Source of the DNA: Massospora cicadina
Taxonomy: Eukaryota; Entomophthoromycota; Entomophthoromycetes; Entomophthorales; Entomophthoraceae
Direction of reading: 5' to 3'
Length of the DNA: 64,000 bases
Assembly: GCA_022478985.1 (NCBI GenBank)
Contig: JAKSZP010009285.1
Span: forward strand, 124,001-188,000
Positions within the stretch are counted from its first letter, which is position 1. The number at the start of each line of letters is the position of its first letter. Below are positions 3,935 to 57,447 of the stretch, in pieces. The notes below the pieces were generated by a model. That model had not been told where the DNA came from. It was given only the letters and a program-made list of their open reading frames with translations, and did no database searches. The position numbers were made by a program, and so were the translations under genes.

Positions 3935-5199
3935 CAGGTGCGTTAAAGGACTTTGCTGGGGTCAGGGGAGTGCCTTCCAATGATTCCCCCGAGGTTCATG
4001 GTGAGGCCAGAGTGATTCAACCAGTCAAATTTTACTACTAGTGCCCATACAGGTTTTGAACTTGTGTTTCCCCAATTAACAGGGTTCCATCAAGAATTGG
4101 CCAGGGACCTTTGGCTGATTTCTTTGACTTTCTTATTTTTAATAATAATAGACAAACTCTTAATATCATCAGAAAATTGCAAATGGCTGACATTTACTTT
4201 TTTTGGTGTAAATTGACCTACAGCATATTTGTTTTAGGCTGCAAAGGTAAATGTCCGACACAAATGACACTTTACTTATTCAATATTTACAGTAGTTACT
4301 CGTTGTTCTACTCTCAAAAACAACTAACATTCTTCCTCCTTCAGTAGTCTCATCTCATTTATAACTCAGTGACCTAAAACGATACCATTTCCTTGGCTTA
4401 GCTATTAAGTTCCGCCATATCTCATTGGTTCTAGCAGAGTATGGTATTCTCAATTCTCTATCACCTTAGTTCAAAGCAATCTCACTCAAGATTCGTTTAA
4501 TGTCAACATCATCTTAACGCCCTATTTGGAGGCAATCTAATAATGACCTTTTCACTCAAAATCGCCTCGACTCAAGGCGCTTGAATTATTGTAACTAGTA
4601 TCATGGTTGGCGGATTCTCTCCAATCCGCCATAGCTATTTCAGGCTTATCATCCAGTCATATCAGAAACTCACCAAATAGTTATCATATGGAATGATAAT
4701 TACCACATCCACTAGTGGGCCTTTTCCCCTAATGGATAAGCAGATAAATTTATAATCTGATCAGGCGGGATAATATGGTCATACTAAGAACCCAACATTT
4801 CCTTCGCTTTACTATATTATCCAGCATGAGGTAGAAACTTTTGAGATGGATATAACCTCAGGCCGTGGTCATATTTTGGCCATCATACTTCAATATGACT
4901 TCAGCAGAGTGCGATTTCTCTACACTCAATGCATCTCATGCCATGCTCATCAACGTGGCTCTTCCTCTTAGTTTCCTCCTCACTGCTACCTCTTCAGAGC
5001 GCAGTTCCCATAGCCCCATGCTGTTCCAAACTATCTTGGTTTTTCTTGATGATAATATGTTCTAGAAAGCCTGTATTACCCCAGGTTGGGCTTATATGAA
5101 CAGTATCATTTAGTTATTCATGGGTTCCCCAATTCCTTAGTCCCTGTTCTCCCACAGGCTGGACTCTCCAATTTTGATCGGAGCAGATATTCCTTAACT
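3935..5199 (-). mobile_element. Remnant of minus-oriented Ty3 element: antisense-gene leader region
   Basis: No intact gene. The plus-strand frame at 4865-5065 (LSFLLTATSSERSSHS, then FLDDNMF) matches by eye the leader between the 3' LTR and the antisense gene in G3 (34457-34580: FLFLLATASSES, THDDII). In G3 that leader lies inside a minus-oriented element, so this is probably the worn 3' end of a relative. Its other parts appear to be the pieces at 7141-7330 and 12531-13111. The first 500 bases (3935-4440) show nothing recognisable. Confidence 0.45.
5186..5199. repeat. TSD of half-LINE 1, left copy
   Basis: GATATTCCTTAACT here is repeated exactly at 7127-7140, directly flanking half-LINE 1. 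A 14-bp duplication with no shared sequence beyond it is the mark of target-primed insertion. Confidence 0.85.
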
Positions 5200-7126
5200 C
5201 AATTCTCTTTCCTCTTGGTGTAACTATATGATAAATATCTTACAGAAAAAGCAAATTTTAATCGCCTGCCATAGTTTTTCTCTGATGTCCTCAGATTCCC
5301 TGCCAGCTGCCCCAGTGCGGGGCAGCATCAAAACTCCCCCTGCCTTTTCTGTCTGAAAGTAAAACGCGCTCAGACCGGCTCACCCAGTCATAACAAACCC
5401 CTGGGACGATTTATCTCTAATAATGATCTTGACGCCCACTTCACTCATACCCAAGCGGTGCCTCATTGCCCTCTGGTGCTCCCCTGGAGCAACATGCTTT
5501 TTGGCCTTAGGGTCGATTATGAAAAAACTTTTTCCTTATCATGACCAAGCCATTATCAAATGGCTCAGGCGATATGTCCCACCGGTTTTATTGACTTCTG
5601 CTCATATAAGGGATATTTTAACTTGGGCTTTACATGTGAAGCTGATGCTGCCACTGTGGCAACTGTGCCCCTGGGTTTCCAGGGGTACCCTCTCCCCACA
5701 ACTTGGACCTAGCTCCCATCAGATACCACTTTGGTGTTTCAATTTGCTGGAATGCATACCCACCTCCCCCCTGCGGTGCTCAACCAGGAACTGATGGACA
5801 GTTTGGCAGCCTATGGCTCCAACCCCATTTTACAATTTGTGGTCCCAGATGGGGCCAAACGACTCTTTGGGCTTCAGGTGTATTCCAAAATCAGCCCTGA
5901 ATATAGCAAAATCGCCGTTTTTGTACCCCTTTACGCCATCGTTCCTTCTGCCCCTGACCATCTGTTCTGGGCCTGCGCCAAGGGCGGGCGGACGATCTGT
6001 ACATCCTGTTTTGAGTTGGACCATTTGAAACATATTTGCCCCTCCTTAGCTATTCCCCAATGGCTCTGATTTTTCGTCTGCTGACCTCCAAACTGCCGCC
6101 CACCCCACGCCAGTTCTGGTATGGGGTATGATCCTACCTCCCCATCCCCCAAATCCTGTTGCTGCAGCTGCACCTGCAGCCTCCAATAAGCCTCTTCCTC
6201 GCCCCAGTGCCACACATGATTCCTCCAATCAAGAACTGGCTTGGACACCAGTTTGATCCCATGATTACTATAACAAGTCACCAAACCTCAACCATACTTC
6301 AATTCCCCACTCTAATTCAACTGGAACCCATGGGAGTTATTGGCTATAATTGATGAACTAGGTGATCTCATTGAAGAAATTGCTCTGCAAATTGAGTAAT
6401 TTGTTAATACAGAATGTGACGCCAAATACCTCCATCATTTATATGCCCTACAGCCAAATGCTGAATCATTTTGCAGTGACCACCAGCTGGCAATCAAAGC
6501 AGCTGCCACACCAGATTGTTGTCTTCTCTGTAAAGCTGTCGCCAAATCAGTGGTGATGCTCACAGGAGGTAATCCCCCTCCTGTTATCCCCTTAACCCTC
6601 ACCCCAAAAAGTAAATTACAGTGAATCAATTGCACAAAAATGCCAACGACACTATCCAGAAATTGGTAACTGTAGCACGGAACCCTAAAGCTTAGATTAC
6701 TTGAATATATATTGCCATGTTTGTTAAACTCCCATACATCTGCATTAAAGACGAAAAAGCTTTAGCTGAATATATCAGCGCCATTTTCTTAGCTGGAAAT
6801 TTCCATAAAATATCAATAATTAGTGATATTGAACCACATGCTGCCAATGCACCGGCGTCCTTGCTAGCTTTCTTGACACATACCTTACTCTGGGATGAGC
6901 AAGCTTCTTCCAAAGATGAGCCCTCCAATCCACCCTCCCCTTCCGCCATGGCCAGATATGCGGTTTTCTGCTACCCACCTGGTTGGTTGTTTTTGTCTGG
7001 TGTGTTTCATTCAATCCGGCTCATTTTGGGCGTTTTGTTTGAATTAATTAGTTATGATGGTTTTTAGATTTAGTTATAGTTTTGGTAATGTCTGTCCCCT
7101 GGTCGGCTTACCTCAAATAAATATGA
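5200..7126 (+). mobile_element. Half-LINE 1: full-length ORF1-only LINE relative (1927 bp)
   Basis: The exact 14-bp duplication GATATTCCTTAACT sets both ends. The element has a short 5' leader, a single ORF1-like coding region and a 3' UTR. It ends in the LINE tail (GGTAATGTCTGTCCCCTGG, then CTTACCTCAAATAAAT). There is no endonuclease or reverse transcriptase between ORF and tail. Its size matches half-LINE 2 (1894 bp) and half-LINE 4 (1903 bp), so the ORF1-only form is the unit that moves and not an accidental deletion. Confidence 0.85.
5285..6960 (+). pseudogene. Half-LINE 1 ORF1-like protein, broken
   Basis: The start ATG at 5285 (MSSDSLPAAPVRGS) is placed by homology with the starts at 15805 and 46396. 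In order: a conserved block near 5510-5650 (KLFPYHDQAIIKW, frame-shifted), AGMHTHLPPAVLNQELMDSL at 5745-5805, and a CCHC zinc knuckle C-X2-C-X4-H-X4-C (CTSCFELDHLKHIC, 5998-6040). A C-terminal region without counterpart in LINE ORF1 ends DEPSNPPSPSAM near 6950. Several frameshifts break it, and the stop seen after the last Met in other copies is lost. Likely role: nucleic-acid binding in the retrotransposition particle, inferred from the knuckle. Confidence 0.75.
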
Positions 7127-7330
7127 GATATTCCTTAACTTTTTTTCAAGAAAACCTATTGGAAGATCCAGTTTCAACCTGGGCTGATCCTGTTAAACAA
7201 TATTATGGAGCACCACAAGATGCTTTTGATTGTGGCAAAATAAAGAAACAATTTTTTGTATGGTTTTTCTTTTTTAATTTTATATCTTTTCTCTATGTTT
7301 TTATCCTATGTATTTTATTTCTATTTTTAA
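7127..7330. other. Right TSD of half-LINE 1 and remnant flank
   Basis: 7127-7140 is the second copy of the 14-bp duplication. The next 190 bases are AT-rich (long T runs near 7250-7330) and hold no gene. They separate half-LINE 1 from the 3' end of LINE-C and probably belong to the old Ty3 remnant into which both inserted. Confidence 0.5.
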
Positions 7331-14619: not shown

Positions 14620-15707
14620 GAATGTCTTATAAAGACAAGTTATGCAAACTGTGGATGGAATTAGCCATGGTGATCAGAATGACCCAAACTCAGAATATCA
14701 TCAGGACTTCACAGCCTTGGAAGAGCGAGTCATCAAGGTGGAGGAAGAAATAGATAATGTTGCAAGCTTTGGGAACAAATTACTTGGGAAAGTAACACCA
14801 TTGAAAAAGAAGTAAAGGACCTCATTTGAGAGGTCTTATATATGAAAATGGAGTGAGAAGAGGATAGCATTCATTTGAGAAAGGTCAGCGCAGATATAGA
14901 GTGACTGATCAAACAGGTGGAGGAACTTAAAGCTCACAAATGTGCTTGTGAGCCCAATATGGCAAGTGATGCTGAAGAAAGAAGTCCTGACATGAGACTT
15001 GGGAAGTTGAATACCCCAAGGAACATGCCACTCGCTTTTGCTGCCATTTCAGAGATGACGCCCAAAGCCACTCCTCAAGTTAGCTGAGTGGATGAACTGA
15101 GTGAATCGGTCAGAGATAACTCAGAGGAATTTAAGGCAATGCCAAAATTACCAATGTTCCATCAAGATAATGCCCCAGCACTCTTTTGATGTTCAATATG
15201 ACCATGGATGGCTATTGGGATCATCAAAAGGCGTTGACAGTCATGAATTGCCTAGACACCAACTGTCAGAACTTAGTGTTACCTCACCTCGAGGGGGACA
15301 GCTGGTTGTATGCTGAGGCAAAGGTGGCCATCATGAAAGAGTTCTGGAGTCTGACATGCATTTAAAGTGCAAACAGGAATTTATGGGAATCCAGTTCCAT
15401 AAAGGTGAGTCTCTAGCAAACTTTGCAGATTGGTTTTACCAGGAGTCGCAGATCCTGGTTAGAGTGAAAGTGCTTGACAACTTCTATGCTAGAATTGACT
15501 CGCAACTGGCCCTTCAGCCCTATCATGATTTGCATTGCATGATGTCTTCTGTGTTCACGATGGAAATAACTACCTTGCAAATGGTAGATAATTTAAATAT
15601 TTTGGGAGCAACATTTGATGCCCCAAATAGAAGCTTCAAATCCAATCTGTTACACAATCTGAATCCCATGAAGGGAAACAAAGGAACTAAAGAGATGACT
15701 AATTGAA
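14620..15707 (+). pseudogene. G2 gag, first part, broken
   Basis: Begins near MSYKDKLCKLWMELA (about 14623), which matches LYKDELRKLWMVLA of G3 gag (minus, 41514 downward). The longest surviving piece, 15356-15706, reads FMGIQFHKGESLANFADWFYQ and PYHDLHCMM, resembling a retrotransposon gag core and the G4 block at 45943-46206. It is cut at 15707 by half-LINE 2 and resumes at 17618. Several stops lie between 14640 and 15350. Confidence 0.7.
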
Positions 15708-15804
15708 TTGAAAAAAACTTTCTTTTACCGCTCAAAGTCACTTTTGAGCGATTTTAAATTTAAGTTTTATTTATCCACAGCCGTCTGCCCAAACCTATTC
15801 TTTA

Positions 15805-16461
15805 ATGTCCTTGGCTCTACCACCTGCCACCCCAGTGTGGGGCAGTGGTGCACCCCCACCTAGCGTTTTCCGCCCTGCGGGCAAGTGCATTTGGATGGGC
15901 TCAAACAGCCCGCCCACTGCTTCCAGCCGTTTTGTCCCCCACGGGACTTAGCGCTCCACCTGGCGCGCGTCCACCCTTCTCGCCCCCATCCTCTCGCCCT
16001 CCCTCGCTCCACCATTCGCTATTGCCTCAGAGTGGACTATGGGCGTTTGTTCCCATATGCTGATAAGGCAATTATTGACTTAGCCACTGTGGCCTTTGCG
16101 CCGCCTGGCTTTATAGACTTCCGCCCTTTTAAGGGCTACTTTGACGTTGGGTTCCAATCTGAGGAGGATGCTGAAGCGGCAGCACAAACTCCTCTAATTT
16201 ATAAAAAATCCCCATTCCCACAACTCGTACTCGCCTCCCTTCAGACACCACGCTGGTGGTATCCTTTGCAAATCTCTCATCCCACCTTCCACCCCAGGTT
16301 TTGTATGACCAGTTGGTCGCGTGGCTTATGGCTTATAGCACTCAGCACAACCTCATATTTGCCATTCCATCGGGTGCAGAGCGCTTTCTGCTCCTCGTGC
16401 AACAGCCACCATCATACCACACCACCCTACCATAGCCCAACAAATCCCACCCCGCGCTAGT
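15805..16461 (+). pseudogene. Half-LINE 2 ORF1-like protein, N-terminal part (frameshifted)
   Basis: Start ATG at 15805 (MSLALPPATPVWGSGAPP) is conserved in half-LINE 1 and half-LINE 4. At least two frameshifts follow. The next readable frame (15885-16460) holds VPPRDLALHLARVHP-like sequence, then YGRLFPYADKAIIDLA and GFIDFRPFKGYFDVGF (about 16035-16155). The next true block, SFANLSSHLPPQVLYDQL (about 16260-16315), lies in another frame. The blocks parallel the WIDMGFKTEEDADAAA and FPTNLPHKVIEEEL blocks of LINE ORF1. Confidence 0.7.
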
Positions 16462-17502
16462 GTGGCTGCAGCGCCTGATCATTTCTTTTGGGCTCGGGTC
16501 AATAATGGTAGGCAGATTTGTCCCCTCTGCTTTGGCCTCGACAATGCAAAAAAAGCGTGCCCTCAGGCCAATTCAGCTGCTGCAGCTTCTGAGCCCCCTC
16601 TGGAGGTTCAGTATGGGGTGCTTTGCTGCCCCCCACCCTCCAATCTCGTTCAGTGGGCCTGCGTGGAAAATCAGCCCCCCAAAACCCCCAGCCTCACTCT
16701 CCCACCTAAATCCATCCCAGCCAATCAGAGCAATGCTTGGACCACCATTGGCACCCAAGCAGCCACCCATTCGCCCAATCCCACCCACCCAAATTTGAAC
16801 GCCACTATTCCAGTGAACCAAAATCCATGGAATCTATTAGCTGAGACTGACGAATTAAGTAATGTCCTCATTAGTAAGCATACAGGTCAAACTCTCTGCC
16901 AATTCAATTATGGTTGGGCAGAAGTTTTCCTTCCCAACTTTGATGAAACCCCTACTCCTTGCCATTTCGCTCCTCTGCCCAATACAGCCCCCTTCCAAAG
17001 TAACCACCAGCTCGCCTTAGCTGCGGTGGCCTCTCCTCAGTGCCTAAAACTAAGCACCGCGGTGGCCCAGTCAGTGGCTCAGTTCCAGCATGGGCTTCCC
17101 ATCCTCTTCTTCCCCCCCAACTTCCCTGAATCTCCCTGTAGTGACATCTCAAAACTATTCAATGATGCTGAAGTTGCTGTTATGAATGTTGCAACGCTTG
17201 CTTTATTCAACCCCGCAGCCAAAATCACCCGCCACAGTATCTCCCTTTTCACCCAACTTCCTGAAGCCCGCAAAGAAGCTGAAATTCTCCTTGCAGCTTT
17301 TGTTGAATCACTTTCCCATCATTATCTTGATGATGAAGTGGAAAACTCTTACTATGCTGACCTCTACCCCCACTATGCAGATGCCCCAACGCCCTGGCTC
17401 TCTGCTCTGGTCCAGTACTGTAACCAACATCCCATGATCAAGGCGGGTCTTTCTGAAAACCAACCCCCTGACCCCTACTCACCCTCTGCCATGGTGGGTT
17501 AG
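16462..17502 (+). CDS. Half-LINE 2 ORF1-like protein, intact C-terminal 346 aa
   Basis: The longest open half-LINE frame in the window. It opens with PDHFFWARVNNGRQ and the CCHC knuckle CPLCFGLDNAKKAC at about residues 20-33; the His position carries Asn here. A Pro/Asn-rich linker follows, then a region rich in Ala/Leu with predicted helices (FTQLPEARKEAEILLAAF). The conserved end is PPDPYSPSAMVG. LINE ORF1 has the knuckle but not this C-terminal region. Its function is unknown; RNA or DNA binding is inferred from the knuckle. The first codon is only the first Met of the surviving frame. Confidence 0.7.
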   Translation: MAAAPDHFFWARVNNGRQICPLCFGLDNAKKACPQANSAAAASEPPLEVQYGVLCCPPPSNLVQWACVENQPPKTPSLTLPPKSIPANQSNAWTTIGTQAATHSPNPTHPNLNATIPVNQNPWNLLAETDELSNVLISKHTGQTLCQFNYGWAEVFLPNFDETPTPCHFAPLPNTAPFQSNHQLALAAVASPQCLKLSTAVAQSVAQFQHGLPILFFPPNFPESPCSDISKLFNDAEVAVMNVATLALFNPAAKITRHSISLFTQLPEARKEAEILLAAFVESLSHHYLDDEVENSYYADLYPHYADAPTPWLSALVQYCNQHPMIKAGLSENQPPDPYSPSAMVG

Positions 17503-17634
17503 CGGTTTCCGCTTCCCACGTGGTTAGTAGTTTTATTTTGTCATTTTGGATGTTTTGATTCGGTACTGTCCGTCCCCTGGTTGGCGTACCTTGTATAAAT
17601 TGAGATGACTAATTGAACCATGCCTGGGAATAAG

Positions 17635-26554: not shown

Positions 26555-27708
26555 GTGTCAGGATTTTTGCCCATATTCCCAGCCTGCTAGATTACCAGGA
26601 ATCACTAGGGGATAATTCCCTAAGGTGAAGTGAGTTAGAAATCAGTTGGCTTGAGTTTTGGAGTAACTAAGTTTGGGGGATTTTGGGATATAGCTTGGTC
26701 ATATCCATTGGGGATTGATCCGGATGAATACTTAAGATCTTGTTGGGCGGAGTTGCTGATGAAATAGGGCATCTGATAGTGATTAACCATCAGGTGTACC
26801 AATTGGGATCAGTCAAGTTTCTTCACCAACTGATTGGAAATGAATAGCAAGTTGCAAGGCGAGTGATGCTGCCTGCAACTAGCAAATAGATCAATTGGTG
26901 CGTGACCTGCCTTAATGGGTAATATGTCCTATTACCTAAGCAGGTCAATAGCCAATTATGGTTGGTTTGCTTGGATTGAGAGGAAAACGTTAGGGACACA
27001 TTTTCTGAATCTTTACATATAGGTCTTGAGGATGTCCAATGACGTAATCCTAGCCAGGATGGGGAAGACCATCACTGCCAATACAAGGATGGGTGATTCA
27101 ATGGCAACGGCTGCTGTTTCATCAAATAGGTGTCACCTGAGGGTTAGATGACTGAATCCTCACTATAAATTTCCCAGAATTCACTCTAATAGGAAACAGA
27201 TAATTAGATCATATTACAGATATATAGTTCTATAAGTTGTTCATCTGTTATATAGTTTAAGTAGTAAACTACTACCATCTTTCCATTGTGCTATTCTTCT
27301 CAAGGATATTATTTCTGTGTGCGATAATTGGGAGACTCTTAGAGAAAAGAGTAAAGATCTGAGTGGGGATTTAGAGAAGAAGGAGAAACAATTGGGGATT
27401 GCTGCAGACTGCGTGTTGGACCAAAGAGACTGTCACCAGGGTTTCTAAGAGAAGATTGGGTTGGACAGAGTGAGGAAAAAATCCCTAGATCATGACATCT
27501 CAATTATTTAATCAGGAATACTGGCCGAGCGTTGGGCCAAGATATAAGAATTCATACTCAACTATGGATAATAGTCATCATGCTATTATCAACTGATAAT
27601 CTAATATACTATACAATGCAGATGAAGTGCACAAGAAACTGAACCTGTGCAGTAAAAAGATTACTAGGGTTGTTTACTGATAATAACCAATCCAAGTAAA
27701 TTTTTACA
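26555..27708 (+). repeat. Second downstream LTR copy (1154 bp)
   Basis: Starts TGTCAGGATTTTTGCCCAT and ends AATTTTTACA. It shows some closer matches to the 5' LTR than 24885-26016 does (for example the stretch around 27180-27300 against 13735-13860). It could be the true 3' LTR of G2, with the copy at 24885 added by recombination, or the reverse. Confidence 0.8.
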
Positions 27709-29421
27709 CCCACTTTTCTCAAACACAAGCTGTGCCCCACTGCCCCCTGCTACTTCCCTGAAGAAACATATGGTTGGCCTTAGGGTCAAATATGGGAAAC
27801 TCTTTCCATACAGTAAACAAGCCATTATCAAATTGGCTCAGGCAGTGATGCATCCCACCTGTTTTATTGACTTCCGCCCCTATAAGGGGTATTTTGATCT
27901 CAGCTTAACATGTGAAGCTGATGCCGCCATTGTGGCAACTGTGCCCATGGCGTTCCAGGATACTCCTCTCCCAACAACTTAGACCCAGCTCCTAGTGGAA
28001 ACCACTTTGGTAGTTCAGTTCGCTGGTTTTCCCACCCACCTTCCCCCTGAGGTGCTCCATAAGGAGCTGGTGGAAGGTTTGTTAGCCTATGGCTTAACCC
28101 CATCTTGCAATTTGTGGTCCCAAATGGGGCCAACGACTTGCTGGGCCTCAGGCGTATGCCACTTTAGCCCTGAAATGAACAAAATTGCCCATCAATTCCC
28201 CCCTGCGCCGCTATCCCCTCTGCTCCTGACCATCCGTTCTGGGCCCACATTGAGGGTGGATGGATGATTTGTCCATCCTGTTTTGAGTTAGACCACTCAA
28301 GATGCAAGTGCCCATATCTAGCAGCATCCAACAGTGCTGATAGTTTGTCCAACAGCTACCAATCTGCCACCCACCCCATGTCAGTTCTGGCATGGGGTAT
28401 GATCCTACCTCCCCCTCCCCCAAATCCTGTTGCTGCAGCTGCACCTTCAGTTACTAATCAGCCTCCACCTCGCCCCAGTGCCACACATGATTCCTCCAAT
28501 CAAGCGCAGGATTGGACCCCAGTTTGATCCCATGAATCCTACAACAAATCAACAAACCTCAACCATACGCTGATTCCACTATTAATTTCAACCAGAACCC
28601 ATGGGAGTTTTTGGATGAAATTAATGAATCAGGTAATATCGTTGAAGAACCATAGCTGCAAGTTGACCAGTTCTGTAATGCAAAATAGGATGCAGAATTC
28701 CCCCTCATTTATATGTCCCAAAGCCAAATGCCAAACCATTCCACAGTGACCACCAGCTTGCAGTGGAAGCAGCTGCCACACCAGACTGCCATCCCCTCCA
28801 CAAAGCTGCCACCAAATCAGTTGTGGCACTTGCAGGAGGTATTCCCCCAACTGTTATCCCCCCAACCCTCGCCTCAAAAAGTAAAATCACAGTGAATCAA
28901 TTGCACAAAAATGTCAAGATGCTATTCAGAAAGTGGTAACTGTAGCATGGAATCCTAAAGCTAAGATTACCTGAACCAATATTACCACATTTGTTCTAGT
29001 ACTAAAAAAATATTGCCACATTTGTTAAACTACCAGACACCCACATTAAAGCCAAAAAGCTTTAGCCAAATATATTACTGCCATTTTTATGGCTGGTAAT
29101 TACTCAGAAGTACCAATCATCAGAGATATTGAACCACATACCACTGATGCCCTGACACCCTTGATATCTGTCTTGGCACAAACCCTACTCTGGAAAGAGA
29201 TAGCTGATGCTTAAGATGAGCCCCCTGATCCCCCCTCCTCTTCCACCATGGAGGGATAAGTGGTCTCTGCTGCCTACCTGGTTGGTTGTTTTTTTGTGTG
29301 GTGCATTTCATTCAATTGCCCATTTAGTGTTTTGATTGAAACAATTAGTTACGTTAATTTTTAGTTTAGTTTTTAGTTCAGTAATATCCATTTCCTGGTC
29401 AGATTACCACGGTTAAATAAA
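27709..29421 (+). mobile_element. Half-LINE 3: 5'-truncated copy
   Basis: Begins exactly at the LTR end, at a point matching about position 5430 of half-LINE 1, so the leader and ORF start are missing. It ends in the LINE tail (CAGTAATATCCATTTCCTGG, TTACCACGGTTAAATAA). 5' truncation is usual for target-primed insertion. No clean TSD was found. It is closest to half-LINEs 1 and 5. Confidence 0.8.
27770..29259 (+). pseudogene. Half-LINE 3 ORF1-like protein, broken
   Basis: Pieces in order: KYGKLFPYSKQAIIKLAQ and FIDFRPYKGYFDLSL (27790-27900), FAGFPTHLPPEVLHKELVEG (28020-28080), CCHC knuckle CPSCFELDHSRCKC (28270-28315). The unique C-terminal region follows, ending DEPPDPPSSSTMEG with TAA at 29257-29259. 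Several frameshifts and stops lie between. The C-terminus matches half-LINE 5 (DEPPDPPSLSTMEG). Confidence 0.75.
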
Positions 29422-44206: not shown

Positions 44207-46317
44207 AAAATCAATGACACTCTCTGAAATGGGCCCAAACAACCACTTACTGGAAAATTTACCATAAGAGTTCGTGACAACAATAAGGAAACTAATGACA
44301 AAGTAATATTTGATTATCTTACTACAAGCCACCAAGTCTCTGGTGCAGGTACCTCCTACTTTCTTATCTTATCACAGTGGGGGAGCTCATATAGATACAA
44401 GCCCAAGTAATCTTACATCTGAAAGCATATAAGCTATTCTGGAAACATTATATCAGGGTTTTAAAATTGGCACTTCACAAATTGATCCCTCCTTCAGCCT
44501 GTTATATCACCTCAAAGATCAGGCACTCAAGATGGAATATACATGAAGTACCATAATGCTACATGGCATCCCTTGCCAGATGTCTCACAGTCAAGATACT
44601 AATGAATACCTGGTTAACTTTGTCCAACCCTCAATCAAGCATACCCAGCGAATCCTTGCTAGACAATATCTGGAACTCATGGAAATCTACCTTGTACAGA
44701 GGGAGGAACAATCTTCCTGAAATGCTCTACTGGATAAAATAAATTTAGTTTTACTGAAGTCCAAAAAGCAATTATGGATAATACAGGCCTCACCAATGAA
44801 GCTCATCACAGATTAAAAACCCTTTAGGAGCTTCTAAACAAAGGAGTCCCAAAGATAGCCGCAGAAGTTCTTGCTCACCATGGGCTATTGCATGAATGGG
44901 TACAAAACATGAATAACTGCTGGAAAAAATTGTAAAGTCATTTGAGTTCCTATTATCTCAGACAGAAAGACACACCATGAAGGCCACTTTAGGCCAAAGA
45001 GATCATCTGGACTTAAATTCAAAGCACTTTAACTTTAAAAATTATGTTCTGACTGAGCTGGGTATTGTAAACAAAACATTGAAGTCCTTGCAGCATTACC
45101 AGATGTCCCAAATAGAGATGAGGAGGATGCCCAAATCAAAGAGGAATTTTCAAAAATTTGGACTGTTGTGTCAAGATTGCAGGCCAAGAATAATGAAATT
45201 ACTCAGGAGAATTGGGAACTCAGAATGCAATTATCAACTGCAAATTACCAAGTAGACAGTATGGCCAAAATTATTAAAAGCATAAAATCAAATTAAGCTG
45301 TATTCAAAAAGAAGTATGACAACCATAAAAAAGAATTTAAATCCCTAAAAGCAAAGCTGCCAGTGCTCACCAGACTTTACAAAGGAGAAATAGGAAAAAG
45401 TTCTGCCCATCTAGCCAAAAAAAATAATTTGGAAAAACAACTAAGGGCCTAATTCAAGCATTATAATCCAGTAGGATGGAGCAATGTCATGAAATTGAAT
45501 CACCAGAAATGACACCAATGCGGAAACTAATATTTTGAAAATCCGTCCTATGCCTGGAGTTCTGGCATCAATCCCAACTCCAGATAATCCCCAACTGGAA
45601 AGAGGGCTAATTATAAATGATGATACACCAAGACGTTCAAGTACTAGAAGTACATCCCTTATGCCCAAATTGGGCAAGATGACTTTAAACCATTAAACTT
45701 GCCAAAGTTTGATAGAGAAGGGGATGTTCACTCTTTTCTAAGCTATTTGAAAAAGCAATGCGGGGAGCATCAGATCATACAAAAGGATCATCACTAATAA
45801 ACTCACTTGAGGCCCATAGCTGTGACCTCATTATGCCCTATTTGGGTGACGATTGGTCCTATATTGATGCCAAAGCTGTGGTGACAAAACAATTTAAAGG
45901 GCTTGGAAAATTAGAGGCCCAAAAAAAGAGAGCTTCTTAATATTGAATTCAAGTAAAATGAGACTATTAAGGACTTTGAAAACAGATATTTCAATGAGGC
46001 GCAGTCTTGCTTGGGTGCAAACAATATATAAGTTAGACGCTAAGATTGCAATGAAACATGCAGTCATGCCCTACCATGAATTGCACCATCTCATGATACC
46101 TGCATTCAATGGAGAAATTGAAACCCAAAAGCTTACCAATTACTTAAGAAGCTGTTCCCACAGTTTTAATACCCTTAATAAGCCCAAGAACCAGCAAAAA
46201 TTTTAATTTTCAAGCCCAAAAAGTAACACTATGTCCAACCAAGGGAAAAATTCCCAAAGTATAAACCAAAAATTTGAGGAAAATCAGCAAACAGTGCCAA
46301 TAACATGCTACAACTGT
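44207..46317 (+). pseudogene. G4 gag, first part, broken
   Basis: Pieces: a Lys/Glu-rich coiled-coil-like region (44977-45255); then 45758-45940 and 45943-46206 with LIMPYLGDDWSYIDAKAVVTKQF and PYHELHHLMIPAF, which parallel the gag core of G2 (PYHDLHCMM) and G1 (IVPYLNPSLTWVEVKKALV). It is cut at 46317 inside the zinc-knuckle codons by half-LINE 4. Confidence 0.65.
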
Positions 46318-48220
46318 CCGCTCAACATCAATTTGAGCATTTTTGTAAAGCAAACCAATTTTTCACCACCGCCTCACCACACCAATTTCCAAATTATGTC
46401 CTTAGATCCAACACTTGCTGCCCCAATATGGGGAAGCGGTGCTCCACCCGCTAGCAATTACCACCCAGAAGGCAAACGCATGCAGACTGGCTTTCCCAGT
46501 CCACCAAATACATCCAGCTCTTATGTCCCTCCAAGGGACCTAGCACTGCACCTTGCATGAGTCCACCCAACCTGCCCCCACCCCCTAGCCCTACCCCAAA
46601 CCAATATTTGCTTTTGCCTCCATGTCGAGTATTGACGTCTCTTCCAATATGCTGACAAAGCAATAATTGAGTTGGCAAGGCCACCTTTGCACCACCAGGG
46701 TTTATCAACTCCCACCCTTATAAGGGCTATTTCAATATTGGATTCCCCACCAAAGGGACACAGCCGCTGCAGCAGCTACACTCATAATGTACAAAAACAC
46801 CCCTATTACCACCACCTGAACACGTCTCCAGATGATATCACACTTGTGGCGACCTTTGCAAACCTCCCCTCACACCTTCCCCTCAAACACTTTATGAGGA
46901 GTTGATGTTAGGGCTGTTCACTTACAGTGAAAACCCTATCCTCCAATTCATTGTACCAAGTGGTGCTGAACGCCTCGCAGCACCTTGGGCAATGGCCACC
47001 TTTACCCCCCACCAGCTGGACATGGCCCAACATATCCCACCGTGTGCCTATAGCCCATCTGCACCTGATCATTTCTTTTGGGCTTGCACTGACAATGGGT
47101 TTCACAATCTGTCCCCTTTGCCATGAGTTGGACCACACAAAAAAAGCATGTCAATACAATCCAAAACTGCAAACATGGCCAACTCCACCCATGAGGCCAA
47201 ACCAACAGTGTTTTAGTGGGGATTTTGGCTGCCCCCCAGGCCATGCTCTTGAATCAGCAACAAAATCGAGCAACTCAAATCCAAGCTGGACAAATCCAAG
47301 ACAGGCAATGTACACCCAGGTCAACCAATCAAAAGCAGGTTTGGAACCATGTTCAGTCCAGAAAATCTCCCACCCTAAAACCTACCCAACCAAAGTTACC
47401 TACCACCATAGCTTCTTGAGTCAACCAAAATTCTTGAAACTTATTGGATGAAGTGACTAAATCTGGTGAAATTTTCCCACCACCGGGTTACCCAATTGTT
47501 TTAGTACCTTTTATGAATTTAGACTTTGATGCCCCAGTCCTGATAAACCGATATGTCCACAAAACCAATGCCATCCTTTACCAAAGTGACCATCAGCTTG
47601 CCAAGGGCACGGTGGCCTCACCCAAAAATCCCTGTTTTCACATATTGTGTGCAAAATCTGTTGCTGAATTTAAAAAAGGGCTGCACCCCCCTTGTTCCCC
47701 TCCAATTTTCCTCCCACTGCAAAAGAGGAGATCCAACACCTCTGCGGAACTGCTACCATCGCAGTCAAGAATGTTGCTGAACTGGCGGATTTTTCTCTAT
47801 CCAAACACATCACAAGAGCCAATATTGCGAAATTAGAACAACTTCCTGACGCCCACATCCAAGCTGAACACCAGGTTGCCACACTCATAGAGGCTTTGAT
47901 CCAGGTTAAATTGATGATCTCAAAAACTATCTACTCCACCTCAACCCTCATCCCACGGATGCCCCAACCCCCTTGCTCTCAGCATTGATTAGCCTCTACA
48001 ATGCTGAGCCTGATGATGATCCGCCTGATCCCCCCTCCCCCTCCGCCATGGTTGAATAAGTGGCTCGCCGCTGTGCCACCTGGTAGGTAATTTTCTCATT
48101 TCTTTTTGTGTCTCACTGCTTGATAAGGGTGGTCAATTCATGTTTTTTGGTTGGTTTAGTTTTGGAGTTTCAGTTTTAGTATTATCCATCCCCTGTCAGC
48201 TTGCCTCAGTTAAATAAAAT
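46318..48220 (+). mobile_element. Half-LINE 4: full-length ORF1-only LINE relative (1903 bp)
   Basis: A 15-bp duplication, ACATGCTACAACTGT (46303-46317) and ACATGCCACAACTGT (48221-48235), defines the ends. The target is the zinc-knuckle coding part of G4 gag. The leader holds a GCTCAA / TTGAGC hairpin (46320-46325, 46333-46338), as in half-LINE 2. It ends AGTATTATCCATCCCCTG, TCAGCTTGCCTCAGTTAAAT. It has no endonuclease or reverse transcriptase. Confidence 0.9.
46396..48059 (+). pseudogene. Half-LINE 4 ORF1-like protein, broken
   Basis: ATG at 46396 (MSLDPTLAAPIWGSGAPP), then VPPRDLALHLA to 46560. Further pieces: FANLPSHLPLKHF (46855-46895), ILQFIVPSGAERLAAP (46940-46985), DHFFWACTDNG, and an intact CCHC knuckle CPLCHELDHTKKAC (47110-47155). 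The C-terminal region (ITRANIAKLEQLPDAHIQAEH near 47810) ends DPPDPPSPSAMVE, TAA at 48057-48059. There are frameshifts between pieces. The C-terminus is closest to half-LINE 2. Confidence 0.75.
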
Positions 48221-48222
48221 AC

Positions 48223-48350
48223 ATGCCACAACTGTGGTCAAAAGGGGCATTTTGCTAGCCAATGCTAAAGATGGTAAGAAAAAGCCTGTGGTCAACGTTT
48301 CTCAAGAAATCAACAGTGACAGTGAGGTGGGAAAAGAGCAGGTGGAGTAG
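48223..48350 (+). pseudogene. G4 gag zinc knuckle, second part
   Basis: TCHNCGQKGHFASQC restores a C-X2-C-X4-H-X4-C knuckle right after half-LINE 4. The duplicated target bases encode its first part. A stop follows the last Cys. Confidence 0.7.
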
Positions 48351-49799: not shown

Positions 49800-50570
49800 C
49801 TGTATCCAAGGAGATTAAGGAACTCCTTAATTGCGGCATGTTAGTGCCTTCAAAAAGTCTATGGGCGGCACCAATTTAGTAGTGAAGGAAAAGGATGGAA
49901 GCAACTGAGTAGTCGTTGATTACTGGAAGTTAAACAACATCACAGAGAAGGAATTGTACCCTCTGTCATGAATTGATGATGCCTTGGATAGGCTAGAGGG
50001 CGCTAAGTTCTTCTCAGCAATGGACCTTATCAGCGGGTATTGGAAAATAGATTTGTCCAAAGAGGAGCGTAAAAAATGTGCAATCACAACCCAAGAGGGC
50101 CTATTCCAGCCGATAAGAATGCCTCAAGTGCTCTGCAATGCCTCAGCTACCTTTCAGAGGGCCATGGACACAATCTTGGGAGATTTAAAATTGTCATGTA
50201 TACTAGTGTACATTGATAATATCAACATTTTCAGCCGCATTTTTGACGACCACCTAGAGCACTTAGAGGAAGTTTTCAGAAGGCTAGCAGCTGAAAACTT
50301 AAAAATCAGCCCAAAAAGTTCCAGTTCTTTGAAGACCAGCTGGAATACCTCAGCTTTGTAATTGACAAAGTGGGTCTTCAGCCCCAACCCTCTATGTTAG
50401 ATGCCATATCAAAAATGAAATAGTCCCAATCCAAGTGTGATATCCAAGTATTCCTAGGCATGTTTGAGTATAATCGCCAATTTATCACTGACTTTGCACA
50501 ACTTGGAGAGCCGCTTTCTATCTACTTAAGGATAATGTCCAATTTGACTAGACTTCAGATTGCCAAAATG
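49800..50570 (+). pseudogene. G4 reverse transcriptase domain, broken
   Basis: The 49984-50361 frame holds AKFFSAMDLISGYWKIDL, RMPQVLCNASATFQRAMD and ILVYIDNINIFSR. The catalytic box is YIDN instead of YLDD, so the second metal-binding Asp is lost. Fingers sequences precede it around 49800-49960 with frameshifts. Confidence 0.8.
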
Positions 50571-51000
50571 CATTTAAGCAACTCTGATAAGCACTATTGG
50601 TCACGCCTGTCCTTTGATATCTGGACTTTGATCAAGAATTTATTGTCCAGACTGATGAATCCCTAACAGCAGTGGGGCCATATTATCTCAAATCAGGGAA
50701 GATGGTGAAGAACATCCGGCTGCCTTTACTAGTTGACCTTAAATGTTCATGAGAGAAATTACACGGTGACAAAAAGAGAATGCTTAGACGTCATATATGC
50801 TTGCAAATTGTATGGGTCTACCTGCATGTCATTCATTTCAAAGTTGTTACTGATCATTCATCCCTAAGATGAACAACTAAAGATAGCCTGAGGGCCGATT
50901 AGCCCGCTGAGAATTAAAGCTTTAAGCTTATACCTGAGCAGTTGAGCATTGAGCTGGGGAAAAACATAAAATACTGCTTGCCTTTCCTGACTACCCACTA
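50571..51000 (+). pseudogene. G4 RNase H domain, decayed
   Basis: Scattered blocks: QTDES near 50650, ECLDVIYACKL near 50780, KVVTDHSSLR near 50840. Order and spacing are as in G2. No continuous frame. Confidence 0.6.
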
Positions 51001-51029
51001 TTGCAACACTTAGTCAAACCACCAATAAG

Positions 51030-52230
51030 TTGTTTAAGAAAAAATTAGTGGAAAGTACCAAGATGATCATGAATCTGTCCAAAATATTATTGGATTTACA
51101 AAAGAATACAGCTATCAAAAATGGGACACTTTACAAGATCATTGAGGGCATTAAGTATATTTTTCCAAGACCATTGGCCCAAACAGAAATCATTTTGGCT
51201 TCCCATAAGGCCATAGGGAGTGGTGGATTTAAAAAAGATGAAAGAGCATTTGAAGCAATTCTACTATTGGGAGTCAATGCATTTTGACATCCAAGAAACG
51301 TTAAAATGCTGTATGGAGTGTCAAAGTGAGAAACCATAAAAAAAGCACATCTTATCTGCTTGTTTGTCCCAAGTTTTCCTAGAACACTGTATCTATCAAC
51401 GTTGTTGTCCTACTTCCAACAAGCAATACAAAGGCCAAGTACATTATTGTAGCTAATGACCACTTGACCAAATGGGTCAAAGCCAAGGCTACTCAGGAAG
51501 CAGGAGCAGAAACTACAGCCAAGTTCGTCCTTGAAAACATCCTCCACAAGTATGGATATCTGCAGGCTATCCTTACCAATAATAATACAAATTTTATTGG
51601 CAATATCCTTGCCAAACTCGACCAAAAATGGGAGTATGAGGTGTGCTTTCTGCTCCCTATCATCTCAAAAAAATAGTACAGTTGAGCGCACAAACAGGAC
51701 GTTGGTGAACATTTTAAAAAAATTAACTTTGGCCAAAACATCCAAATGGAGTACTTATTTGAGGTCAGCAGTATTTGCCTAAAATCTCATACCATTTGGC
51801 AACCAGGATGTCCCCTTTTCAGATATTATATGGAAGACATCCAGCCCTTACATCGCTACTATTTTCAGTCCTAAAAGATCTTGGCAAAAACAATTATCCT
51901 AAATATGTCAAGAAGCTTGCAGATAATTTAATCAAACTACAAGCTCAAGACTTTGACAACAGTTTTGCCGTGAAAAAGGCCTGATATGAAAAGGATTTGA
52001 AAAATCGCTACAAATTGGCCAAAATTGAAGTCAATAAATAGAGTTTTATTTAACAACACCCACGGATTGGGCCAATTGCAAAACTTAGATCACATCTGGG
52101 TTGGGCCATTCGAAATAATTGAGAATACATCATAGTCCATATACACAATTAAGGATATTAGGATTGGCTATATATACAACTGAGTCCATGCAAAATTCCT
52201 AAGAAGGTTCAATAAGCTGGTCATTTAAAA
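51030..52230 (+). pseudogene. G4 integrase, broken
   Basis: An N-terminal segment (51030-51287), a core piece with NHLTKWVKAKATQEAGAETT-like sequence near 51460, and STVERTNRTLVNILKKLTLA (51675-51730), which includes the catalytic Glu. ISYHLATRMSPFQILYGRHP follows (51781-51840). A GPFEII block near 52105 is the GPY/F module, with VHAKFLRRFNK at the end. Frameshifts separate the pieces. Confidence 0.75.
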
Positions 52231-52404
52231 AAATTAAAAGTATAAAATAAGAGCATTGCATAAAAAGAAAAAAAGTAAGAAAAAAGTTTAAATTAAATAA
52301 ATAATATGAATTTAACCTAAGACAGCTTTTCTTTCTCGTAACAATCACTTTAGTTACTACAATTTGATTTGAACAGCAACTTTGGATAATCACACACAGG
52401 AAAG

Positions 52405-53869
52405 ATGAGCGACTTTAATAACAAAAATAATACAACATGGGCGAGCGTCGTGGCAAGTGGTGTTCTTAATGGTGCAACTAAGGGCAAGAAACGCCCTGGA
52501 GGGGGACCAGGAACCCAATTCATAAAAAATTGCAAACTCATTGGGTTGGGACCATCTGGTACTAAAAAAATTACAGACTCAGACACCATCTGGGTTTATG
52601 GTATTTACTGTAAAGCACGCGCAATACATGTACATTCAATTCAACCAACCTTTGTCAAAAGTGGAACATGGGATCAGACTCTTCCTTGGGGATGAGTCAC
52701 CGACCCTCTGGGAGAAAACATGTGAGGCACAGCCCTCACTTTTCCCTCACGCGGTGTATGTAGCCACCAACAACATGGGCCACAGCTGGATTGATATGGG
52801 TTTCAAAACTGAAGAGGATGCAGACGCCGCAGCAAAAGTCTGTTTTGAAATAGCCCTCCCTGAGGGCAAACAAATTGTGCACACCGCATGCACCAGATGG
52901 AACAAAGCAAAAACTTTGTTCATCTCCTTTGACTCTTTCCCCACCAACCTTCCTCATAAGGTAATTGAGGAGGAGCTCCGCAAAGGTCTTGTGGCCTATG
53001 GAGAAATCCAACAACTCAAATTACAGCGATTTTGCTTAATGCCCAACCTGTGCATGAGCAAAGCTATTGCTGTAATCAACCCCTTCCCAGAAGTGGAAGA
53101 AGATGCATCCAGAATTCCCCAAGCAGCAGAATTTCACTTTGCAGATGGGGGCCAGTCGGCTGCATTCTGAGTTACACCAGAATGCGCATCACCCATTTGC
53201 AACCACTGAGGCTCACTGGGCCACAAGGAACATTCATGCCCTGTAAAAGAGGGCCTAATGGAAAATGATTTTTGTGAAGAAGCTATGGATGAAGATAATG
53301 ATAACTTTGCCAAAATGACTGATGGCCACCACCTATTCCGCTGGGGTGAAGATGGACTATACTCCATTGTGGACCCAGTTACAAGTAAACAGCGTAAAGC
53401 AGCACAAAAAGCCCGCATGAGAGCAGCGGCTGAAGCGGCGGCACACGCGGAATCCACCATTAACCAAGGAAAAATTCAGGAGGATATTTCAGATATTCAC
53501 CAAACCAACCAATCAGAACAATATGCTCAGGTCGAAAATTTTCACACTAACCAGACTGAGCCACAAAGCGTCATCAGTCATGCACATACTGAGGAACAAT
53601 GCAACCGCAATTTGGGTGAAAATGTGGTGCACAATGCAACAAAGTTGAACCTCAAAAACACAAAATCCAATCAACAACCCGCATCAAATCAACATGAGAC
53701 CTGTGCAGGAAAAGTTGACGCAAATGCAAAAAACTGCAATTCCCTTGAATCATTGGGTCAGATCAAGGGAAACAACAATGGCAGTGAAAGAGTTGGAGTA
53801 CAGATGCGGAGCATGGCCAAAATGAGCCACAGTGGGATAGGACCAGAGGGTCCTCCCAACCGCTCCTGA
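52405..53869 (+). pseudogene. LINE-A ORF1: RNA-binding protein, frameshifted
   Basis: ATG at 52405 (MSDFNNKNNTTWASVVASG, a basic Gly-rich start). One frameshift near 52600 leads into 52541-53170, with SWIDMGFKTEEDADAAAKV and SFPTNLPHKVIEEELRKGL. The CCHC knuckle follows near 53200, but its second Cys codon is TGA, and a second Cys codon shortly before is also TGA. The 53258-53869 frame is an acidic then Ala-rich tail (AAAEAAAHAE) ending PPNRS at TGA 53867-53869. ORF1 proteins coat LINE RNA; that role is inferred from family knowledge. Confidence 0.8.
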
Positions 53870-56800
53870 GGCGCCGCGGGCACCTCAGTGTCAATAGGGA
53901 CGTTAAATATCGCGGGAGCCAGGGCTCATACATCCCAAGCCAAAAATCTGGCATTCCTGCAAAAACCTCTTGTAGACATCTTGACCATCCAAGAAACCCA
54001 CTGCCTACAAGGGGAAGAAGAATCCTGGTCAACCAGGGTCGCACCATCACAATCAGTATGGACGTCTCACTGTGGAGTGATAGTCCAAAACAACAAAAAT
54101 TTAGTATTACAAATTCATCATCACACTTGCACGGTTGAGTCCTGGTAGCAACAATCACATGCCAAGATGAAATAATTTTGTTAGCATGTATCTACGCACC
54201 GTGCACTGCAACTGAGAGAAAATTTTTTTTTTTTTGAAAAAAATTCTACTCTCACCCTCACACCAGATATCATCATGTTAGGCGATTTCAACTGCTGGGA
54301 TAACCCCAATACAGATCAATGGCCTAATCCCAGGGGATACCCACCTGGACACATTGAATATCGCACAATGAAGGCATCTCTTGGCTTACAGGATGCTCTT
54401 CCCCCCAATTCACCAATCCTTCCCCATATGACAAGACCCAACATACGTGAGGGACTGCTCATATCAATGAGTCATATTGACCACATCCTCATCCCACAAT
54501 CCCACCACTCAAGAATCTCCAAATTTACAACAAAAAAGATCAATTTTTCTGATCACTGATTAGTTACGGTGCAGTTAGTGCCAACCCAATCCCACACACA
54601 GGTGTTGCCTTGGAGAAAGCTTCACCCAGAAAATATAAGATTGCCTGAGATATCTGACTGGGTTGAAAACAAGGTTACAAACCCAGAATTCACAGCCCCA
54701 TTCACTTCAGATCCCATCAGAACATGGGAAAATTTCAAAAAAGATTTAATCAATAAAACCTGACATATTGTATCACGCAAGTACACCGCGGACACAGCCA
54801 CAATCAAGCGTAACTTGGCAGAACTAGACCACCTGGATATAAATACTCCGAGATCTGGCTATAGCCCTAATTGGGGACGCAAATGGGCAGAAATTTCAGC
54901 CGACTTAACAATCTCATCTTTGAACACCAACACAGAATCAAAGTATCGAACAAAGGTAAGTTCATAAAGGAAAGTGAAACCTGTTCAACATAGTTTTTCT
55001 GCCAATTCCACTACCGCGGAAACCAGCCCACATGCACACAGGTCCGCAAGACCAATGGCACCATGGCAACTGACCCTGAGGAGGTCAAGGCGGAAGTACA
55101 CCACTATTACACCAAATTATATCGTGATATGCCAACAGATCCACAAAAAATAAAAAGAAATTATTCAAACTGCTAAGATACAAAGTACATCACCAAATTA
55201 CAATATACTATTCCTTATCACACGGGAGGAGCTTTGGGAAACAATTCGCGGTGCACCACATAGGAAATGCCCAGGGCCTGATGGGATACCCTACGAATTT
55301 TACAAAAAATATTTTCAACAAATTGCCACCCTCCTATTGGCGTCAATGAACCAGAGCTTATTGAAAAACACGCCTATTACCAGGAGGCCATGAATTCTAC
55401 GTTATAATCTTGTATAAAAAGGGTGACAAGTTGGACCTGGCCAACTGGCTCCCAATTGCACTCTCCAACACTGACATAAAAATTCTAACAAAAATTCTAG
55501 CAGCTAAATTAGGCGCAATTGCATCTGACGTCCTATCACCCAACCAGTTTGGGTTTATACCAGGGAGTTCAATCTGGAACAACATACGCCCTGTTGCAAA
55601 CATTTGCCAATCAAAAGCAACTGGTGCCCTGGTCTTCTTGGATCAGGAAAAGGCGTATGACCGTGTTAGCTGGCCATACCTAAAAGAATGTCTACATGCC
55701 TTCAAACTCCCACCAAGATTCATAAAATGGGCGATGCTCCTAACAGAATCTGCAACCATGGCTGTATGCGGCCCTGGATTCCTAACAAACAATATCAAAC
55801 CACACAGAGGGCTCAAAAACTGGATCCCCTCAGCCCACTGCTATACAATTTCAGCTTTGACCCGCTCCTCCGAGTAAAAGACTCACGTCTCATGAGGATA
55901 ACCGCACAAGGAAAACCAACAGTCAAGATACTGGCCTTTGCAGATGACTGCGTAGCAGGTATAGCAAACAATGAAGATGCCCAACAGCTGGAACACACTC
56001 TAGAGGAATACTCCAAGGTGAGCAACGCATCGCCCAACAAAAGGAAGACAGAAATCATCCTCTTAGGCAAATACACAAACAATTGGGCCACAACATCAGA
56101 ACCTCACACCAACACTTGAAGAAAAAACCCAATTATTTTACCCTTTGCAACACCTCCCACCACTCCTGTCTGACACCTTGGAATCTGGCTAGATTCAGGG
56201 GGATATGCTAATGAGACAATGGAAAGTAACCTGTTACAACGGGTATCCAAACGCGTCGCCTCCCTCAAGGGAAGAACCCCAGGACTAACAGGACGAGCTA
56301 CAGTTGCTAACTCACTCATCCTCCCAATACTGTGGTACCAGGCCCATGCGATAGACTTCTCACCTACCTTTATAACCTCAATTCGCGCGCTTATCCAGGG
56401 CTGGCTGTGGCCTGGCTCTCATCCTCCTATACGGATGGAAACACTATTTGGCCCACGCTCAAGCGGAGGCATGGGACTAATAGATTTTGAGAGCCATGCC
56501 AATCACATCCTAGGTACCTGGATAAAAGAAATCCTTGATCCAGACCTCCCGCAACAACATTGGTACAGAGCAGCAAGGACTAACTTTGCACAGGCGCTCA
56601 AATTAACCAACCCACATAGTCCACTCAGACTACTTTCATACCTTGCCAAGCACCCTACTGCAACGGGTCCGCATGGAACCTCCCCTCATTTCAAACATAT
56701 CCTCCAAACTATCCGCCTTATGGGATGGACCATAGAGAACATGGGTACTATACAGGGAAGGGGACGACCCAGCCCCCAATTCAAATTAAGAAACCCAGAA

Positions 56801-57447
56801 AACCACCCCCAGAGGGATATGCTCGCAACAAACCCAAGCATAGCTAGGATAGAATACCTAGATATGCTGGACATTCCCTATGATTTAATCACACAGAAAG
56901 CAATGTGGAAAATGACACACCACCCACTCCTACAACCAAGGATAAGAGCAAACGCCTGGCGCTGTTTGAGAAGGACCTATAGGATGGTGGACCGCTCCAA
57001 CTCCCTCCACAAAACATGTGCAGTATGTGGAGGGGAGGGATCCCTACATCACCGCCTAGAAACATGCCCCCCAACCAAAGCTATATGGCAGGAAGTCGCA
57101 CGCCTGCTCAAGATTCAAAACGAACAGGAATTCTCGATATCAAAGAGTATCTTCGCGCTCCAGATTGAGTCACCAATCCCATCTACCCTCCGCTCCCTAA
57201 TAATACCCGTTGCAATGTGGACAATACACACAATTGCATTAGATGCGTTCAAGGGCATGGTTTAACCATTCATGGGCTTATTAACAGATTCCATGTCCAC
57301 TTACTAGAGCACTTCCAAGACTGGCTCTATGGATATATGAGACCAAGGCAAAAAGCGCTCATAGAATCATAGTTCCCACTCTTGTTCCTCCACACAGACC
57401 CTTTCCTTCACACCTGCTCCATAGCAGGGGAAACCCCCTCGGAGTAG
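53870..57447 (+). pseudogene. LINE-A ORF2: endonuclease, reverse transcriptase, zinc-binding end
   Basis: It follows the ORF1 stop with no gap and in the same frame. APE endonuclease: IGTLNIAGARAHTSQ and ILTIQETH (53894-54000), GDFNCWD (54277-54297), HIDHILI and FSDH (54474-54559). Reverse transcriptase: CPGPDGIPYEFYKKY (55270-55315), LANWLPIALSNTDIK (55437-55480), FLDQEKAYDRVSW (55634-55672), FADD (55937-55950). The last 348-codon frame (56219-57265) contains C-X2-C...H-X4-C (CAVCGGEGSLHHRLETC, 57019-57069), the zinc-binding region found after many LINE reverse transcriptases. Several frameshifts and stops; end by alignment with LINE-B. Confidence 0.85.

Follow-up and report, generated by a model that had tools for sequence, protein, structure and literature searches.

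The window, a 64,000-nucleotide stretch of DNA from the cicada-infecting fungus Massospora cicadina, contains copies of a non-LTR element with one ORF1-type gene, here called a half-LINE. A reading made from the sequence alone had proposed three copies (A, B and C) with target-site duplications (TSDs) right at their ends, plus two more that were 5'-truncated or cut by the window edge. Both proposals were borne out. A, B and C have the boundaries listed below, D is truncated, and E, cut by the edge, is approximately full-length once the flanking DNA beyond it is added. It was also confirmed for A, B and C that each has one ORF1-type gene and neither endonuclease (EN) nor reverse transcriptase (RT). 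The census covered the window and 20 kb on either side (104 contiguous kb) and found seven half-LINEs, A to G. The features are as follows, in window numbering.

5185-5199 and 7126-7140: TSD of copy A, agatattccttaact, 15 bp when the A at 7126 is included
5200-7126, plus strand: half-LINE copy A, A-type family, full-length, frame with stops and frameshifts
7080-7122, plus strand: 3' tail of A, with a GGTAA...TTACC potential stem-loop
7340-12534, minus strand: LINE-beta, a LINE of greater divergence that has a related tail and pieces of ORF1, EN and RT
15692-15707 and 17602-17617: TSD of copy B, gagatgactaattgaa, 16 bp, exact
15708-17601, plus strand: half-LINE copy B, B-type family, full-length
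15718-15755, plus strand: 5' pyrimidine tract and stem-loop of B (MFE -11.0; 0 of 500 mononucleotide shuffles as low)
16462-17502, plus strand: longest intact ORF part of B, 346 aa, with the knuckle region, linker and C-terminus ending PYSPSAMVG
17557-17600, plus strand: 3' tail of B, with a GGTAC...GTACC potential stem-loop, then TATAAAT
27700-29419, plus strand: half-LINE copy D, A-type, 5'-truncated
46303-46317 and 48221-48235: TSD of copy C, 15 bp, 1 mismatch
46318-48220, plus strand: half-LINE copy C, C/F-type family, full-length except for the 5' pyrimidine tract
52321-57603, plus strand: LINE1, full-length, with LINE-type ORF1, EN and RT, frames broken
57638-62925, plus strand: LINE2, about 35 bp past LINE1, with pieces of ORF1, EN and RT
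63143-63159: 3' copy of the TSD of copy E, TATTTGTCAAAGGGTTT, 17 bp, seen with flanking DNA
63160-64000 within the window, minus strand: 3' part of half-LINE copy E, A-type, which runs on to about 65072 in L049
about 73.3-75.2 kb: half-LINE copy F, with TSD TTTAAGATTACTAGG
elsewhere in the 104 kb: half-LINE G, a C-terminal piece belonging to a fourth family

Five of the seven half-LINEs (A, B, C, E and F) are full-length or nearly so. Copies C and E start at or slightly before the 5' stem-loop, and since most of the pyrimidine tract is missing, they may be about 10 bases short of full length. No TSD was found for D. At the DNA level, A is 76-78% identical to D and E, and B is 67% identical to C over 765 bp; the similarity of A to B or C lies mainly at the protein level. 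No EN/RT match was detected inside the window half-LINEs or directly downstream of them. As a separate observation, CpG is strongly depleted across window positions 1-64000 (observed/expected 0.335, compared with 0.998 for GpC and 1.28 for TpG), and by eye some half-LINE copies often have TG/CA where others have CG. Together these patterns suggest cytosine methylation and deamination of repeats in M. cicadina.

Six LINEs were found in the 104 kb, four of them with an ORF1 (LINE-alpha, LINE-beta, LINE1 and LINE2). None of the seven half-LINEs runs directly into EN/RT; the closest same-strand LINE after a half-LINE is LINE1, which starts 4.1 kb past the end and TSD of C. By eye, the TSD of LINE1 is ATAAATTTAACCTAA (1 mismatch) and that of LINE2 is TACTATAGTT[C/T]GCAC. 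LINE1 is a candidate for the kind of helper that half-LINEs would need. Two further points concern the neighborhood. LINE2 follows LINE1 by about 35 bp on the same strand, and the LINEs of L072 and L067 start no more than a few hundred bp past the tail of a half-LINE; LINE starts close behind element tails may reflect an insertion preference near tails or chance in a LINE-rich genome. Retroelement remains with integrase-like sequence, judged Ty3-like by eye, occupy window positions 50424-52200.

At their 5' ends half-LINEs have a pyrimidine tract together with a stem-loop, the stem of which differs in sequence between families: GCTCAAA/TTTGAGC in B, GCTCAG/CTGAGC in the A-type copy L035, GCTTGA/TCAAGC in F and GCTTCAAT/ATTGAAGC in G. 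The same pyrimidine tract is found at LINE 5' ends, with stems GTTGCAA/TTGCAAC (L095) and GTAAC/GTTAC (LINE1). The motif CACTTT lies in or beside the loop of B, F and six of the LINEs that were read; A and E have AACTTT and C has CAATTT, and neither CACTTT nor these variants was seen in G and LINE2. When compared with 500 mononucleotide shuffles, the stem was strong in B, F, L035, G (L057; less so L055) and the LINEs of L095 and L067, and moderate in C. In E, LINE1, LINE-beta, L072 and LINE2 it did not reach significance. Window copy A is predicted to fold otherwise, without this stem-loop.

The 3' tails of half-LINEs A to F and of all six LINEs in the 104 kb align over about 45 bases (16 sequences in the alignment). 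The fold of A supplied a stem-loop that pairs 85% of the cells in this alignment; its stem reads GGTAA..TTACC in A and LINE-alpha, GGTAC..GTACC in B and GGAAG..CTTCC in LINE82. Among 500 shuffles, 4 equalled or exceeded the stem-loop in covariation score and 5 in paired fraction, but 260 did so in number of covarying pairs, 21 in cells and 37 in pair types. RNAalifold did not choose this stem-loop and returned another, weak structure instead, and when 12 tails were folded singly, the full stem-loop appeared just in A, B, LINE-alpha and LINE82. The tail stem-loop is thus a plausible, moderately supported potential structure.

The sequence-only reading had each half-LINE ending in the same tail as the LINEs. 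This stood in part. The tails of the A, B and C/F types, which are three of the four families, resemble LINE tails, but they are not identical to them. An A/B-type tail, searched as a degenerate pattern without mismatch, occurs 866 times in the genome (control, 0). At the first 20 loci with this variant, half-LINE C-terminal sequence lies upstream in 19 (weakly in L090; the exception is L080), and a LINE protein match within 500 bases upstream was found at none. The tail of G differs from those of A to F and is carried by none of the LINEs in the 104 kb.

TSDs were evaluated with a score of at least 10 as the threshold for a strong TSD and with shifted flanks as controls. Strong TSDs were present in 23 of 28 B-family copies (8 of 336 controls) and in 8 of 20 A-family copies (2 of 240 controls); part of the lower rate in A may be explained by the greater divergence of A copies. 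TSD length ranged from 11 to 21 bp in the scored A/B copies, and half-LINE TSDs are mostly 14-21 bp long. L037 and L039, two A-type copies about 24 kb apart on contig C14118, have an identical TSD; given the common contig and TSD, they probably represent one event, with the locus duplicated or mis-assembled. TSDs, a constant 3' end and 5' truncation, the hallmarks of target-primed reverse transcription (TPRT), are all present in half-LINEs.

Searches were extended to the 1.47-Gb assembly (16,968 contigs). The first-look candidate numbers (7199, 12770, 36220 and 92523) are not copy numbers. For LINE ORF2, 116 of 92,523 first-look candidates were scored. With B as query, the best 40 of 7199 first-look candidates were scored: 36 start within 28 bases of the 5' end (counting the window copy and one two-piece copy), and the copies other than the window copy are 91-93% identical. 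The mean difference between B copies is 7.5% (range, 5.3-9.3%). With A as query, 35 of 40 scored copies, including two that align in two pieces, begin no more than 61 bases from the 5' end; main pieces are 76-83% identical, window copy aside. Being the best-scoring copies, both sets are biased towards full length.

G was examined with its protein sequence and its tail. The protein query gave 150 scored matches including itself, the others being 74-82% identical. Four of six fetched loci (L055 to L058) hold elements of 1.90-1.91 kb with the half-LINE N block and C-terminus. The TSDs of L057 (16 bp) and L055 (13 bp) have one mismatch each, and no convincing TSD was found at L056 and L058. A search of the genome with 33 bases of the G tail, allowing up to 2 mismatches, gave 4,994 occurrences (reversed-pattern control, 0). 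We sampled the first 16 listed loci, which are exact matches in contig order. G protein sequence precedes the tail at 13 of these; at one locus about 180 bp of element come with an exact 14-bp TSD, and the remaining two retain nothing but the final 54 bp. These two are L059 and L074, insertions of just that end of the tail, and by eye the one in L059 seems to have AAAGATACCAAAA on either side. Five of the 16 loci extend at least 1.5 kb, up to the edge of the stretch. At the other 11 the alignment to L057 ends earlier, in L060 through an interrupting LINE. Apart from this nested LINE, LINE ORF2 was found at none of the 16. With its 3' tail constant and its 5' end variable, G shows the signature of TPRT, and full-length copies are not the dominant form in this family.

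These results refine two expectations. That TSD-bounded copies of 1.9 kb dominate agrees with the best-scored B (36/40) and A (35/40) copies, which are biased to long ones, but not with G (5/16 of at least 1.5 kb). The single consensus of about 1.9 kb that had been anticipated gave way to at least four half-LINE families: A, B, C/F and G.

At the locus L060, unlike the others, a G tail has a LINE RT upstream of it. Another 5.5 kb of sequence (L095) gave the order G 218-1328, a LINE that has an ORF1 of LINE type, EN, RT and a tail of its own, and then G 1309-1908. On both sides of this LINE stands a 16-bp TSD, AAAATGGCAG[C/T]TGAGG. Because the same G copy continues beyond the TSD-flanked LINE, L060/L095 is a LINE inserted into a half-LINE; a template-jump chimera formed by co-reverse transcription was rejected for the same reason. 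Two patterns had been named in advance as contrary to a separate lineage. Copies continuing into RT upstream of the tail were seen this once, as a nested LINE with its own TSD. Random breakpoints were not seen: copies repeatedly begin near the pyrimidine tract/stem-loop and end at the tail.

A conserved ATG-TCC opens the half-LINE ORF in A, B and C. The ORF encodes, in this order, an N block, a CCHC knuckle, a low-complexity linker and a C-terminal region of its own. The N block matches LINE ORF1 with a best E value of 2e-13 (27% identity over 201 residues), and identity rises in short stretches to 39%, and to 59% over 17 residues. A CX2CX4HX4C zinc knuckle is present in several copies, e.g., ICSLCFGLDHAKKACP; in window copy B its His is Asn. 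The C-terminal region is present in families A, B, C/F and G and ends with SPSAMV in B-type copies and SPSDMAS in G. It was found on none of the four LINE ORF1s in the 104 kb, and the LINE ORF1 stretches of L067, L072 and L095 gave no match to it. The combination of LINE ORF1 blocks and knuckle with a private C-terminal region, as first read from the sequence, is thus upheld by the N-block homology and by the absence of this C-terminus from 4/4 LINE ORF1s.

In a protein search with the intact ORF part of B (16462-17502), all 15 matches were from Massospora cicadina. A profile search, which scored just the 8000 candidates sharing most words, gave 39 matches, all from M. cicadina, and no homologue from another species at that sensitivity. 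Pfam returned no family for the B ORF at E values up to 1. AlphaFold modelling of the C-terminal region (mean pLDDT, 36.7; pTM, 0.21) allowed no conclusion on its fold. Among the 48 A/B copies examined, none had the half-LINE ORF of about 565 aa intact, and the longest open stretch was 434 aa; half-LINE activity is therefore placed in the past.

A tree of the N block was calculated from 14 half-LINE rows (A, B and C/F types) and four LINEs, with G left out. Half-LINEs and LINEs are separated by a long branch with support of 100/100, in an alignment that may favor this split since each set was aligned internally and then merged, with rows read through frameshifts. The half-LINE clades are A+D+E, C+F and B. 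The view that half-LINEs are a separate lineage and not deletion products gains support from this split, from the distinct C-terminus and from the non-random ends.

Selection was estimated from dN/dS, with ratios limited by misalignment across frameshifts (B-B pS of 0.20 in the N block) and by dS near saturation. Divergence between families A, B and C is near saturation at synonymous sites. In the C block, ratios between families were 0.26 for A-B (net 0.20), 0.22 for C-B and 0.44 for C-A. In the N block they were 0.47 for C-B and 0.33 for C-A, and A-B was saturated. Ratios involving C are raised by the own decay of a single C copy. Within families, we obtained 0.57 (B) and 0.69 (A) for the C block, and 0.74 (B) and 0.61 (A) for the N block, the latter inflated by frameshift misalignment. 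Third positions showed no excess among B-family variants, whether singletons or shared, as is expected if copies decay after insertion; in the C block of B, synonymous changes were somewhat more frequent among shared variants (23 of 56) than among singletons (60 of 209). The half-LINE C-terminus is thus estimated to have been under purifying selection while A, B and C diverged. Constraint between families, together with neutral-looking variation within B, indicates that this constraint is a feature of the replicating lineage.

We consider it quite likely that half-LINEs are a separate, diversified, non-autonomous non-LTR lineage of about 1.9 kb that encodes an ORF1-type protein only and would be mobilised in trans by LINE ORF2. 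According to this model, the full unit would be transcribed, and the half-LINE's own ORF1p would be translated and would coat its own RNA in cis. A LINE ORF2p would then recognise the half-LINE tail and carry out TPRT, as tails and TSDs point to. The enzyme would be supplied in trans by co-resident LINEs, which have a like 5' tract, often with a stem-loop, and tails related to those of three of the four half-LINE families. In G, the tail is changed while the rest of the plan stays, suggesting that this family uses another helper.

Three other explanations were weighed. Each half-LINE family could have lost ORF2 independently, from different autonomous LINEs with such an ORF1. There is a precedent, as mammalian HAL1s arose independently several times according to the available text of PMC5753468, and the LINE sample is small (six LINEs, four with ORF1, in 104 kb). 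Nevertheless, the C-terminal region common to all half-LINE families seen is absent from all four LINE ORF1s, A, B and C/F group together on the N-block tree, and the LINE in L095/L060 also has a LINE-type ORF1, so that we regard repeated loss as unlikely. Slightly less likely again is that an autonomous parent element carrying this ORF1 is still present, or was until recently, at another genomic location, with half-LINEs as its shorter companions and no independent lineage. LINE ORF2 is abundant, as the first-look candidates suggest, and few LINE families were seen with their ORF1, which leaves room for such a parent. No ORF2-sized gap was found in the alignments of the 40 best-scored B or the 40 best-scored A copies (largest gap, 288 bases; sets biased towards long copies), and the 20 A/B-tail and 16 G-tail loci lacked LINE EN/RT, the nested L060 excepted.

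Alternatively, a host ORF1-like gene may have had its mRNA mass-retrocopied by LINEs, making half-LINEs a retrocopied gene and not a mobile lineage. This explanation would equally give a single ORF, defined ends and a mechanism of LINE type, but the LINE-like 5' tract with stem-loop, the LINE-like tails and the near-saturated synonymous divergence of A, B and C make it the least probable of the three, and very improbable overall. A separate lineage mobilised in trans is thus the reading we prefer. We put forward a bolder version only tentatively, and would not lean towards it: half-LINEs may be a long-lived parasitic lineage without an RT of its own, whose private, selected ORF1p C-terminal domain captures LINE ORF2p in trans, and whose helper has changed at least once by a swap of the 3' tail (G versus A/B/C).

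If a long-lived lineage with a private domain is confirmed, half-LINEs would be the LINE counterpart of a satellite virus, not a recent LINE deletion. As a rule, non-autonomous relatives of LINEs are SINEs or short-lived products of deletion, and the ORF1-only lifestyle, which borrows the copying enzyme of a LINE, is known mainly from mammals and flies. That an ORF1p and its private domain were retained without an RT, while synonymous sites diverged to near saturation, suggests that ORF1p itself is worth keeping for a parasite acting in trans. Half-LINEs thereby offer a natural test of the role of ORF1p for its own RNA and of the strictness of ORF2p cis-preference outside mammals. They also bear on the growth of the 1.5-Gb Massospora genome, in which they may be part of the LINE fraction or of the unknown repeats. 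Their interest would be real if the deep lineage with its private domain holds across all LINE families.

The sequence-only reading knew of no half-LINE described in fungi, and our search of the open-access literature, with Repbase and most subscription papers outside its scope, found none either. L1 LINEs are reported to make up 6.3% of the M. cicadina genome, which is unusual among its relatives and for the order (PMC10515909); the available text of this source has no mention of half-LINEs. Cochliobolus LINEs have two ORFs, and no ORF1-only kind is described in the text available to us (PMC4112212). In barley powdery mildew, the EKA genes are reported to be derived from LINE ORF1 and to have become effectors via premature stops in ORF1p (PMC6022598, citing Amselem et al. 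2015). They too are fungal coding units of LINE ORF1 origin, but in the sections of that source at hand they are not described as a mobile half-LINE lineage. Eg-R1 and its relatives in Blumeria are abundant non-autonomous non-LTR elements thought to be transcribed by pol II; they are classed with SINEs and have a short peptide, ROPIP1, with no ORF1 protein described in the same sections (PMC6022598). Half-LINEs are unlike SINEs in being 1.9 kb long and in having an ORF that is conserved between families.

HeT-A of Drosophila telomeres is a non-LTR element that encodes Gag only and is without RT. Unlike the telomere-specific HeT-A, the half-LINEs described here are interspersed and have ordinary TSDs. 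HAL1 keeps the ORF1 of L1. This mammalian element is a non-autonomous L1 derivative that encodes ORF1p only (PMC5753468 and PMC4859970, available text). Like HAL1, the half-LINEs encode ORF1p alone. An ORF1 taken from a specific co-resident LINE, as in HAL1, was not seen in comparison with the four sampled LINE ORF1s, which represent few families. In contrast to HAL1, which has several origins and is mammalian, the half-LINEs appear as one lineage of at least four families in a fungal host, with an ORF1 far from the sampled LINE ORF1s and a C-terminus of its own.
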